Shown here: piece after piece, positions 3,033 through 49,842 of the stretch
Numbering within the stretch: the first letter of the stretch is position 1
Layout: each line of letters begins with the position of its first letter
DNA from: Evansella clarkii
GTDB taxonomy: Bacteria > Bacillota > Bacilli > Bacillales > Salisediminibacteriaceae
Reading direction: 5' to 3'
DNA length: 64,000 nt
Assembly: GCF_002019695.1 (NCBI RefSeq)
Contig: NZ_KV917376.1
Span: 2,055,380-2,119,379 of the forward strand
Made by a program: the position numbers and the translations under genes
The notes under the pieces: model-generated
Told to the model about the DNA's origin: nothing
Database searches by the model: none
The model's input: the letters and a program-made list of their open reading frames with translations, nothing else

Positions 3033-3069
3033 TCTTTTCAACTTAATAAATTTTAATTATCAAATTTTT

Positions 3070-3186
3070 CTTATCCAGAGAGGCGGAGGGACTGGCCCGT
3101 TGAAGCCCGGCAACCACGGAACTGCATTGCATTTCCGAAGGTGCTAATTCCTGCAAAGCTTATTTCGAGCTTTGGAAGATGAGACA
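3070..3186 (+). promoter_or_regulatory. SAM-I riboswitch (S-box) 1
   Basis: Shows the conserved S-box blocks in order: CTTATCCAGAGAGGCGGAGG, GACTGGCCC, GAAGCCCGGCAACC, AAGGTGCTAATTCCTGCAAA, and the closing GGAAGATGAG that pairs with the opening CTTATC to form P1. SAM binding stabilises this fold and favours the downstream terminator at 3230-3261. It is the first of two tandem units before metX. Confidence 0.95.
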
Positions 3187-3434: not shown

Positions 3435-3552
3435 CTCTTATCAAGAGTGGTGGAGGGACTGGCCCGTTGAAACCCGGCAACCAGCACATGAGCAGAAGCT
3501 TTATTGTGCAAGGTGCCAAATCCTGCAAAGCAGCAGCTTTGGGAGATGAGAG
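3435..3552 (+). promoter_or_regulatory. SAM-I riboswitch (S-box) 2
   Basis: CTCTTATC opens and GATGAGAG closes P1. Inside are GGTGGAGGGACTGGCCC, AACCCGGCAACC, GGTGCCAAATCCTGCAAAGC, all S-box landmarks. The P3 arm differs clearly from copy 1, so this is not a recent duplication. It directly precedes metX. Confidence 0.95.
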
Positions 3553-4791: not shown

Positions 4792-4907
4792 CTCTTATCA
4801 AGAGAGGCAGAGGGACTGGCCCGATGAAGCCCGGCAACCATCGAGTAAACAATATACTCGGAAGGTGCCAAATCCTGCAAAGCTGTTACAGCTTTGAAAG
4901 ATGAGAG
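4792..4907 (+). promoter_or_regulatory. SAM-I riboswitch (S-box) 3, intercistronic
   Basis: CTCTTATC ... GATGAGAG closes P1, with GAGGCAGAGGGACTGGCCC, GAAGCCCGGCAACC and GGTGCCAAATCCTGCAAAGC inside. It starts only 9 bases after the metX stop and I see no convincing promoter between, so it probably acts on read-through from metX or from a promoter inside metX. It controls the metY fusion gene. Confidence 0.95.
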
Positions 4908-5188: not shown

Positions 5189-7006
<1,818 letters not shown>

Positions 7007-7052
7007 TCCAGGAACTTATATATTTGTGAGAAATTTAAGTTAAATGGTGATA

Positions 7053-7265
7053 TCGCAACAACGACTTCATTTCGCAACAAGGGAAGCTGATATCGCAACA
7101 AGGACCACGTATATCGCAACAAGACAGGTGAAAATCGCAACAAAGATATCATTTCGCAACAAGGGAAGCTGATATCGCAACAAGGACTAAGTATATCGCA
7201 ACAAGACAGGTGAGAATCGCAACAACGATATCATTTCGCAACAAGAATCGCGTATTTCACAACTA
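7053..7265. repeat. TCGCAACAA array with 21-bp (two helical turns) periodicity
   Basis: Ten perfect copies of TCGCAACAA start at 7053, 7072, 7093, 7114, 7135, 7154, 7175, 7196, 7217 and 7236, and a decayed copy at about 7257. The steps are 19, 21, 21, 21 repeated, giving an 82-bp higher-order unit in which the spacers also recur. The array fills the gap between metY and the substrate-binding gene, with no terminator visible inside it. Confidence 0.9.
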
Positions 7266-7292
7266 ATAAATTATGAAAAGGAGAGAAGTATC

Positions 7293-8288
7293 TTGTCACA
7301 CATTAAAAATTACAGCCTACTACTATTCGCAATACTGGGAGCAGCTTTTTTAACAGCCTGCGGCACGTCTACTTCCGGGGCAGATGCTTCTCATCCGGAC
7401 AAAATTACAGTAGACTACGCATTTTATTCACCTACCAGCCTCGTATTAAAAGAGTTCGGCTGGCTGGAAGAAGCGTTTGAAGAAGAAGGAACTGAAATTG
7501 AATACGTTTTGAGCCATGGAAGCAACAGGGCACTGGAGTTCCTCTCAGGAGGAAGTATTGACTTTGGATCAACAGCAGGTGCCGCAGCGTTAATGGCTAA
7601 GAGTAATAATTCACCTATAAAGAATGTGTATATATATTCTCAGCCTGAATGGACGGCTCTTGCGGCGAATGCTGATTCCGGTATTCAGTCTGTAGCGGAT
7701 CTTGAAGGTAAAAAAGTCGCGGCTACATTAGGAACAGACCCTTATATCTTCCTTATAAGAGCGCTGAATGAACACGGTCTTACAAGTAATGATATTGAAG
7801 TGGTACCGCTGCAGCACAGTGACGGAGCCAACGCACTGGCTACAGGACAAGTGGACGCCTGGGCAGGGCTGGATCCTCACATGGCAAGACAGGAGCTGGA
7901 AACAGACGCAGAGTTGTTTTACAGAAATACCGAATTTAATACTTACGGCTTCCTGAATGTTCGTGAAAGTTTCGCGGAGCAATATCCTGAAGCGGTAGAT
8001 AAAGTAATTGAAGCATATGAAAAAGCCCGTGTATGGGCCCTTGAAAATCCTGAAGAAACAGCTGAAATTTTAGCAAAAGAAGCAGATATCGATGGTTCGG
8101 TAGCTTCCTTGCAGCTGGAAAGAAACGACTTCTCAAATCCAGTACCTGGAGATGAACACAGGGAGAGCCTCAAAGAAGCGGGAGACGTTCTCCAGCGCTC
8201 TGGCGATATAGACGAATCCCTGGATATTGAAGAGCTTGTTAATGAATTAATCGACTCCTCTTACGCAGAACGGGTCATCGGAGATTAG
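7293..8288 (+). CDS. ABC transporter substrate-binding lipoprotein, sulfonate/nitrate/taurine type
   Basis: A 331-residue SsuA-like lipoprotein. The start is TTG at 7293, placed after AAAAGGAGAG; an ATG 20 bases upstream is out of frame. A short signal peptide ends in LTAC with lipidated Cys23. The mature part has the NMT1/SsuA layout: YAFYSPTSLVLKEFGWLEEAF near the start, GSIDFGSTAGAAALM (binding cleft) and a DLEGKKVAATLGTDPY segment. It would capture an organosulfur compound outside the membrane for the permease and ATPase encoded next. No SsuD-type monooxygenase is nearby, so the true substrate is open; the met context suggests a sulfur source. Confidence 0.85.
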   Translation: MSHIKNYSLLLFAILGAAFLTACGTSTSGADASHPDKITVDYAFYSPTSLVLKEFGWLEEAFEEEGTEIEYVLSHGSNRALEFLSGGSIDFGSTAGAAALMAKSNNSPIKNVYIYSQPEWTALAANADSGIQSVADLEGKKVAATLGTDPYIFLIRALNEHGLTSNDIEVVPLQHSDGANALATGQVDAWAGLDPHMARQELETDAELFYRNTEFNTYGFLNVRESFAEQYPEAVDKVIEAYEKARVWALENPEETAEILAKEADIDGSVASLQLERNDFSNPVPGDEHRESLKEAGDVLQRSGDIDESLDIEELVNELIDSSYAERVIGD

Positions 8289-10025: not shown

Positions 10026-10378
10026 ATTGCAGCCTAAGACGGCGGTGACTGTCTCTTCCTCTGCTCCTGCGGTTACTCGTCGCAAAAAGAGTTCTGCTCC
10101 TGCGGTTACTCGTCGCAAAAAGAGTTCTGCAAGCTTAGCTCCGTAGAATATCCGTCGAGACAACTCGATGTATTTGCGGTGAAGAAGATGCTCGTTCTTG
10201 CGGGAACAGCATGAAAAGCTGAAAATCCATTTTTGCCTGCGTTCAGCCGTCAAAAATTAGTTGAAGCCGTGCCCGCAGAACGCGTCCGTCTGAAGCGTAA
10301 ATCGAACAAGAAAATAACATTTTAAGATAATGATAGTATTAATGATTAAAATCTTGAATTCTAAAAATGATTCAGTTT
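10026..10378. repeat. MITE-like interspersed repeat, family A copy 2, with an internal insertion
   Basis: In reverse orientation to copy 1, the blocks GATTGCAGCCTAAGACGGCG, GCTGAAAATCCATTTTTG, CCGTCAAAAATTAGTTGAAG and CTGAAGCGTAAATCGAACAA are shared. About 150 bp extra sits between the first and second blocks and contains a perfect 33-bp duplication (10060-10092 and 10093-10125). The right end is AAATGATTCAGTTT; the left end is uncertain. The rest of 9928-10409 shows nothing else except the RBS of the next gene. Confidence 0.7.
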
Positions 10379-27934: not shown

Positions 27935-28472
27935 GCAAGAAGGCCTTGCGTTACTTGAGAGGCTGACATCGCGTTACTCAAGGGATGCAAGAAGGCCTTG
28001 CGTTACTTGAGAGGCTGACATCCTGTTACTCAAGGGGTGCAAGAAGGTCTTGCGTTACTTGAGAGGCTGACATCGCGTTACTCATGGGGTGCAAGAAGGC
28101 CTTGCGTTACTTGAGAGGCTGACATCGCGTTACTCATGGGGTGCAAGAAGGCCTTGCGTTACTTGAGAGGCTGACACCGCGCGTTACTCATGGGGTGCAA
28201 GAAGGCCTTGCGTTACTTGAGAGGCTGACATCGCGTTACTCAAGGGATGCAAGAAGGCCTTGCGTTACTTGAGAGGCTGACACCGCGTTACTCAAGGGAT
28301 GCAAGAAGGCTTTGCGTTACTTGAGTGGCTGCCATCGCATTACTCAAGGGGTGCAAGAAGGCCTTGCGTTACTTGAGAGGCTGACATCGCGTTACTCATG
28401 GGGTTCAAGAAGGCCTTGCGTTACTTGAGAGGCTGACACCGCGCGTTACTCATGGGGGGCAAGAAGGTCATG
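27935..28472. repeat. 52-bp tandem repeat array (10 units plus a partial)
   Basis: The unit starts GCAAGAAGGCCTTGCGTTAC and continues TTGAGAGGCTGACATCGCG then TTACTCAAGGGRT. GCGTTACT occurs twice per unit at alternating 23- and 29-bp steps. CTTGAG and CTCAAG inside one unit can pair; several units carry CTCATG instead. Two units are 54 bp by a CG insertion. Frames through the array are interrupted. Bases 28473-28739 show no gene apart from the RBS of the next one. Confidence 0.93.
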
Positions 28473-31046: not shown

Positions 31047-31082
31047 GCTGTTTAGTAATTGACTGAACATTAATTTAATATT

Positions 31083-31186
31083 TCTTATCCAGAGAGGCGG
31101 AGGGACTGGCCCGATGAAGCCCGGCAACCACCAGGGAAACCTGGAAGGTGCCAATTCCTGCAAAGCATAGGCTTTGGAAGATAAGA
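31083..31186 (+). promoter_or_regulatory. SAM-I riboswitch (S-box) 4
   Basis: TCTTATC opens and GATAAGA closes P1, with AGAGAGGCGGAGGGACTGG, GAAGCCCGGCAACC and GGTGCCAATTCCTGCAAAGC inside. It controls the methionine importer operon. Confidence 0.95.
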
Positions 31187-31204
31187 GACGGGACTTTATT
31201 TATT

Positions 31205-49609: not shown

Positions 49610-49800
49610 AATAAAAGTTGTGCCTCATCGTTCCGGTGAGGTAGAGGCGCGGAATTTATCAGTATGAAGCAGGAGTCTGGACGGCTGTGATTGCTTCTGA
49701 AAGGGAATTCTGCCGAAGCAGGGTTATCCATCCAGGATACCTTAGCTGGGGCTGTATTTAAGAGATGCAGCACTGTCACTCTGTTTGATTTGGAGTGGAG
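49610..49800 (+). promoter_or_regulatory. Lysine riboswitch (L-box)
   Basis: L-box landmarks occur in order: GTGAGGTAGAGGCGCGGA, AGTATGAAGCAGGAGTC, CTGAAAGGGAATTCTGCCGA, AGCAGGG, TAGCTGGGGCTGTATTTAA, GAGATGCAGCACTGTCAC. A terminator lies 45 bases downstream, so transcription attenuation by lysine is expected. It controls the NhaC-family gene. Confidence 0.9.
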
Positions 49801-49842
49801 GACTACTTACCTGTATACGGTGGGAAATCGATTTGTTAATGA

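Follow-up and report, generated by a model that had tools for sequence, protein, structure and literature searches.

Intergenic arrays of a short direct repeat with a step of about 20.5 bp in Evansella clarkii and other Bacillales

The array between metY and a transporter gene

The DNA analysed here, referred to as the window, is a 64-kb stretch of the genome of Evansella clarkii (genome G000, G000:C1:2055380-2119379). An array of direct repeats of TCGCAACAA lies in it between a metY-like gene and a gene coding for the substrate-binding protein of an ABC transporter (Table 1), for which "sulfonate/taurine-like" is a putative label taken from a first-pass annotation of this DNA. The array sits within an apparent operon. 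The SAM riboswitch upstream of metY is a sulfur-specific control of the region, and it is distinct from the array.

Table 1. Coordinates of the array, its neighbours and other features of the window
Feature	Position	Strand	Remarks
SAM riboswitch upstream of metY	4792..4907	+	RF00162, 95 bits
metY-like gene (Cys/Met metabolism PLP enzyme + CoA-binding domain)	5213..7006	+	Upstream neighbour; stop 46 bp before array
TCGCAACAA array	7053..7265	+	10 exact cores and 1 decayed; spacers 10,12,12,12 repeated (82-bp unit)
Decayed eleventh copy	7257..7265		TCACAACTA
NMT1/THI5-type ABC transporter substrate-binding protein	7293..8288	+	TTG start, downstream neighbour
33-bp unit	10060..10130		Perfect 2.2-fold repeat, intergenic
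Second array	27935..28467		Different core, GCGTTACT(TGAG/CAAG/CATG); 52-bp unit = about 23 + about 29 bp
Other riboswitches	3068..3185, 3435..3552, 31082..31187, 49634..49813		Together with 4792..4907, four SAM and one lysine

The window contains exactly ten exact copies of TCGCAACAA, every one of them in this array and on the + strand; they start at 7053, 7072, 7093, 7114, 7135, 7154, 7175, 7196, 7217 and 7236, and the last core ends at 7244. The core-to-core steps (19,21,21,21,19,21,21,21,19,21) average 20.5 bp, with 19 bp at each fourth step, and this series gives the 82-bp higher unit that TRF detects (2.4 copies, 93% matches). When the window is shuffled with its dinucleotides preserved (100 shuffles), the core occurs 0.58 times on average and at most 4 times. 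The ten exact copies and the decayed one at these steps, as reported in the first-pass annotation, are therefore confirmed and far above chance, and TRF supports the 82-bp unit with repeated spacers that it had also described. The description of the array as non-coding and without terminator is in line with what was found: it lies between the stop codon of the metY-like gene and the start of the transporter gene, no terminator-like site was found in 6800-7500, and none of the five matches obtained in the window at the Rfam gathering score overlaps it. Its proposal that all copies face the same side of the helix stands only in part. A step of 21 bp does equal two turns, but the 19-bp steps would keep the same face only with a local helical repeat of about 10.25 bp.

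Regarding the rest of the window, two of the SAM riboswitches are less than 500 bp apart, upstream of an ORF which by eye is metX-like. The second array lies past a hairpin that, by eye, looks like a terminator; its core forms 15 pairs in the E. clarkii genome and none in the 8 other genomes of the genus.

Arrays in the same genome and in the genus

The genome of E. clarkii contains 105 adjacent pairs of the form TCGCAACAA-N9..14-TCGCAACAA and none of the reversed pattern. These correspond to at least 14 arrays, 14 of which were retrieved and parsed. Only 2 of 148 exact copies lie outside arrays in the 63.9 kb of array loci, and none does in the rest of the window, so that at the loci counted the even scatter of the motif, which would have spoken against the first-pass reading, is not seen. 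Single copies scattered over a genome are what a motif of the uptake-sequence type would show.

A Pfam scan of 20 proteins adjoining these arrays, including the two neighbours in the window, reveals no common theme. The neighbours include HisI/E (histidine biosynthesis), selA, thymidine kinase, rho, a NERD protein, an antiporter-type membrane subunit, an IS3-type integrase and a luciferase-like oxidoreductase, and most have no sulfur link that Pfam makes visible. The first-pass annotation had considered that the array may be an operator of a methionine/sulfur operon, as its location downstream of metY and ahead of the transporter gene, along with the SAM riboswitches of the same region, could suggest. 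This is not borne out, since there are at least 14 arrays beside varied genes, and since the congener G008 retains the metY-transporter pair (75% identity for the transporter protein) but lacks the array, the two genes being 53 bp apart. We consider a sulfur-specific operator very improbable.

Among the alignments listed, the similarity between arrays of the E. clarkii genome ends approximately at the array limits, and on this basis a mobile element surrounding the array was rejected. The exception is the pair L103/L104, in which the start of a transporter gene is common too. The L104 array (1917-2123, G000:C1:3121916-3122122) adjoins selA, shares spacers and the transporter-gene start with the window locus, and may derive from an ancient copying of the array together with its flank. 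Seven of the 14 parsed arrays are within 0.65 Mb of dnaA on the 5.2-Mb contig, an apparent lean to the origin side.

The sister species G003 has an array at its metY locus, next to a transporter that is 99% identical, and 74 adjacent pairs of TCGCAACAA overall. The fixed spacing in relatives, which the first-pass annotation had named as a test, is thus kept in this species. Orthologous arrays are present in G003 at 10 of 13 E. clarkii loci, and their copy numbers (G000/G003) are often unequal: 24/24, 33/11 for L102/L109 and 11/13.

Nine of the 11 orthologous array pairs at these 10 loci were used to count differences (both L100/L111 pairs were omitted), each G000 unit being matched to the G003 unit with the nearest spacer. 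The cores differ at 76 of 1305 positions (5.8%) and the spacers at 359 of 1669 (21.5%), which makes the core approximately 4-fold less divergent, in a comparison restricted to cores with up to 3 mismatches and with a Fisher test that ignores concerted evolution. The positions of the core that change least are G3, C4, A5, A6 and A9 (3, 4, 4, 2 and 0 of 109, respectively). The pair L096/L114 is contrary to this trend, its core and its spacers having nearly equal divergence (7.2% vs 9.0%). The lower divergence of the core may be taken as an indirect sign that the cores are protein binding sites.

The spacers of the G000 and G003 arrays (n=326) are mostly of two lengths: 249 have 12 bp and 69 have 10 bp, while 11 bp (4), 9 bp (2) and 13 bp (2) are rare. 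Unlinked loci with unrelated spacer sequences show the same succession of lengths, 12-12-12-10, and the 10-bp spacers follow a separate loose consensus, GRAWYYCRWW. Taken together, these two observations suggest that the 82-bp unit may be ancestral to many arrays. The repeat unit itself extends to about gawwTCGCAACAAG, the core being about 9-14 bp long.

In the rest of the genus, the TCGCAACAA array is absent from 7 of the 8 other genomes (including G005, which is 76% complete), and with such a patchy occurrence no general need for arrays is visible.

Occurrence, step and placement across the Bacillales

The exact pair of TCGCAACAA occurs in 3 of 397 genomes of the order: E. clarkii itself, G126 (1 pair) and G367 (10 pairs, at an 18-bp step). 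A relaxed triple, TCGCAA-N12..16-TCGCAA-N12..16-TCGCAA, is found in 40 of the 397 Bacillales genomes, E. clarkii included, and in 25 of 135 genera, when about 0.003 matches per genome are expected at random with equal base use. The reversed triple, which was intended as a control, matches in 22 genomes and 15 genera. Its matches include apparent coding sequences, perfect repeats and also, with AACGCT as the core, arrays built like those of TCGCAA, such as AACGCTCTTATCTC...; the G178 repeat AACGCTCGCAAATCC contains both the TCGCAA and the AACGCT cores. Since there are true arrays among the reversed matches, the class extends beyond a single core, and the reversed pattern is not a null. By a hand count of the matches listed, at least 19 genomes with TCGCAA and at least 5 with AACGCT have matches at two or more separate places. 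Of the 30 TCGCAA loci L151-L180, no fewer than four seem to be coding or follow an 18-bp step (G074, G180, G367, G377), and these genomes are outside the sample used below. The most matches of any genome scanned, 308, are in G152, whose AACGCT triples follow at steps of about 20 bp (AACGCTCTTATCTCAGGAAT; L380, L381).

A scan of genome contigs for the exact core returned 29 stretches, and in 26 of them an ORF of at least 60 aa spans at least one run of cores. No such ORF crosses any core run of L040, L047 or L060. L040, from Peribacillus glennii (3 copies, steps of 21 and 18), and L047, from Paraliobacillus ryukyuensis (20-bp step), look like arrays of the same kind as that of the window. Exact TCGCAACAA triples with 21-22-bp steps and near-identical spacers also occur outside the phylum, in Prevotella (L039, L042, L059) and in Saprospiraceae (L045, L054); these are crossed by ORFs of at least 60 aa and may be of coding or tandem-repeat origin. 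The window array has no match among plasmids and phages, and one G360 array has none among plasmids. In viral contigs, the exact triple pattern gives one stretch, with 18-bp steps, and the relaxed pattern 109 stretches, which are raw and unsorted matches.

The distance between consecutive TCGCAA motifs was measured at 103 loci, which were picked among listed matches whose steps are 18-22 bp or come from a wide-gap search (steps of 10-40 bp) in 18 genomes already known to match, so that the genomes are not unselected. The distances are 19 (57), 20 (142), 21 (324), 31-32 (8) and 39-42 (90), and a single value falls between 22 and 30. The wide-gap search recovered the same arrays, and its distances are concentrated at the same values; L325 and L345 have no array of at least 3 cores. 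The 31-32-bp steps are found only in G212 and G322, two species of one genus. These same two genomes contain a 40-bp unit that starts with TCGCAAGT and repeats nearly perfectly (L329 2465-2550, L331 2426-2511), perhaps a longer-period relative.

Within a genome, the extension of the core is mostly uniform across unlinked loci; it differs between lineages, while the step of about 20.5 bp is near-constant. In G297, TCGCAATAA is found in 53 of 53 cores at 9 loci; in G000, TCGCAACAA in 146 of 181 cores at 13 loci; in G291, TCGCAAGAT in 11 of 14 cores at 4 loci; and in g30 (four species), most cores read TCGCAA(A/T)TA. The cores of G188, G147, G223, G212 and G322 are less uniform, and those of G248 are unlike those of other species of its genus. 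As for the ends of the arrays, L172, L173 and L174 (G147, G311 and G406) terminate in a common flank, ACTGGAAAA, after which comes an arm that matches in part; this has the look of a conserved array end. A different flank, GAATTCCGC(T/A)GGTATT, is common to L158 and L159.

It may be asked whether the arrays are a by-product of slippage duplication, in which neither spacing nor core would be constrained. Units of 82 bp can be seen, as can near-identical adjacent units, and the copy number of orthologous arrays is variable, but slippage does not account for a core that diverges so much less than the spacers, for spacer lengths that are quantised at 12 and 10 bp in unlinked loci, nor for a step of about 20-21 bp that recurs across many genera with different core extensions. 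We regard this explanation as improbable.

Whether such arrays are always intergenic was one of the checks proposed in the first-pass annotation. In the chosen sample of 103 loci, with 105 arrays, none lies mostly inside a called gene, with gene calls that were made here from codon usage (two genes were missed in L100) and that are lacking around six of the arrays, five of G212 and one of G152. A coding function was rejected, considering that the antisense ORF over L102 (298 aa) is not conserved in the ortholog L109 (109 aa) and that 82 bp cannot be divided into whole codons; long antisense ORFs occur over some arrays because the repeat has no stops.

Arrays between co-directional genes number 51 in the sense and 15 in the antisense orientation, or 42 and 14 when G003 is left out, as its arrays mostly duplicate those of G000 in these counts. 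Convergent pairs harbor 20 arrays and divergent pairs 6, against a gene-pair background of 38 to 30. In a scan of at most 250 bp on each side, run without a shuffled control, a terminator-like hairpin was detected between the stop codon and the array for 37 of the 74 arrays that lie behind a co-oriented gene; four of these have one after the array as well. A terminator is present only after the array in 4 of 74 (8 of 74 in total have one there), and none was found for 33. About half of these arrays are thus situated past the point where the upstream transcript should end. The window array, in its apparent operon, is an exception.

In the 8 genomes with a located dnaA, the terminus being assumed opposite to it, 41 of 52 arrays point in the leading-strand direction. 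A strict replication orientation was rejected, the fraction being 41/52; in this count, G003 largely duplicates G000. This leading-strand bias is inseparable from the sense bias.

The first-pass annotation had also suggested a structured RNA spacer. When 17 arrays were folded on both strands and compared each with 40 spacer-shuffled versions, the z-scores ranged from -3.0 to +3.5 with no consistent sign, and a structured RNA was rejected on these grounds. The sense strand of the window array has a z-score of -0.79. On either strand, the fold of L102 is better than that of its shuffled versions (z -3.0), but its ortholog L109 does not share this score (z -0.45 and -1.17). More generally, a transcribed array could be bound as RNA, or could act as a spacer or stabiliser of the mRNA. 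The common orientation of most arrays and their upstream genes (SS 51, SA 20 vs AA 15, AS 6), the apparent operon around the window array and the folding of L102 would be in line with an element of this kind. On the contrary, the inconsistent folds and the many arrays beyond a terminator-like hairpin argue against it, the sense bias cannot be told apart from a preference for the leading strand of replication, and steps of about 21, 31 and 41 fit the DNA helix better than RNA. We find an RNA-level element hard to credit.

Curved DNA due to A-tracts was rejected as a general rule from the fraction of phased A/T tracts (tracts of at least 4), which is 0.05 in the E. clarkii arrays, 0.00 in G152 and G178, and up to 0.37 in G311.

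Relation to known repeats and possible meaning

The nearest described kind that we found is the STAR element of Staphylococcus aureus. According to Purves et al. 2012 (PMC3532100), STAR elements are intergenic direct-repeat arrays of unknown function, whose loci differ between species and which expand and contract; the repeat is a 14-bp GC-rich sequence, T(G/A/T)TGTTG(G/T)GGCCC(C/A), and its copies are separated by at least 40 bp. The present arrays are similar in being intergenic, in having locus-specific spacers and in their variable copy number. They differ in that the core TCGCAACAA (reverse complement TTGTTGCGA) does not match the 14-bp consensus and in that 318 of 326 spacers are of 12 or 10 bp. 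They are therefore not STAR elements, although they are STAR-like in behaviour.

The iterons and centromere repeats of plasmids are direct repeats about two helix turns apart that are bound by an initiator or a partition protein. The present arrays resemble iterons in this spacing, but they occupy many chromosomal loci beside varied genes, none of the 20 adjoining proteins scanned with Pfam is an initiator, and the window array has no plasmid counterpart. REP/BIME palindromes and the bcr repeats of the B. cereus group are also dispersed intergenic families, whose units form hairpins or are longer; unlike REP/BIME, the arrays described here consist of short direct repeats, with no palindromic hairpin unit and no fold common to the 17 arrays. 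CRISPR arrays have the same repeat-spacer layout, with long repeats and unique spacers, whereas here the core has 9 bp, the spacers are far shorter and they are re-used within an array. Searches of the literature on intergenic repeat families, on STAR and on the core string, with most subscription literature outside their scope, returned no description of such arrays, in agreement with the first-pass annotation, which knew of no described family with this period.

We favor, with a little less than even confidence, the idea that the window array is one copy of a dispersed intergenic family of direct repeats that would act at the DNA level as rows of sites for a putative protein, that is, as binding arrays in the wide sense. 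Of the three ideas of the first-pass annotation, a DNA-level multi-site element, operator-like or nucleoid-protein-like, is thus the best that is left, as a putative assignment, and the structured RNA spacer is not retained. Steps near 21 bp, with 31 and 41 bp as alternatives, suit one face of the helix, from which we infer a trans-acting reader of DNA; one core at many loci, which nevertheless differs between lineages, points to a common reader or a common source.

According to this proposal, a core of about 9-14 bp would recur every 20.5 bp or so between variable spacers, and each core would be the putative site of a sequence-specific protein that acts on DNA rather than on RNA. The spacing of about two turns would place neighbouring molecules on one face, where they may bind cooperatively and form a long filament or a roadblock, often in the gap between a terminator and the next gene. 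Copies would multiply within an array by duplication of a unit (82 bp in the window array), and the family could be chiefly a selfish repeat in the way it spreads, using the putative protein as its handle. Several observations do not fit well with the protein-binding proposal or weaken its basis: the occurrence is patchy; the reversed-pattern control is not clean; the window array lies in an apparent operon; L096/L114 has nearly equal core and spacer divergence; some genomes have non-uniform cores; with its 19-bp steps the array is not exactly in phase; the steps of 31 bp, which are the best independent sign of phasing, are confined to two species of one genus; and the orientation bias (51 vs 15; 41/52 leading) is not required by a purely symmetric DNA site.

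Another hypothesis is that of a selfish or neutral family, STAR-like, which spreads to intergenic sites where it is tolerated, whose arrays lengthen through duplication and whose core is kept for a copying or mobility enzyme, with no function for the host. It would explain the patchy occurrence in the genus and in the order, the G008 metY locus without an array, the frequent location past terminators, where insertion is harmless, the variety of neighbour genes and the unequal length of orthologous arrays (33 vs 11 copies in L102/L109). On the other hand, apart from L103/L104, the alignments listed show no shared element around the E. clarkii arrays, the window array matches no plasmid or phage, and copying alone does not explain a near-constant step with differing cores. 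We see this as a real possibility, if not a likely one.

A more speculative and rather unlikely extension of the protein-binding proposal is that a protein whose preference drifts from lineage to lineage coats the phased arrays, insulates transcription units or organises the nucleoid, and co-evolves with the core, in an undescribed system that would be widespread in the Bacillales, if patchy.

If the family is selfish, it would be a compact case of repeats that keep their period while the core drifts, and would bear on the question of the purpose of STAR-type repeats. Should a host protein bind the arrays, chromosome organisation or the insulation of transcription in this large and well-studied order would have a layer that has gone unnoticed, and the species with and without arrays would be natural experiments.
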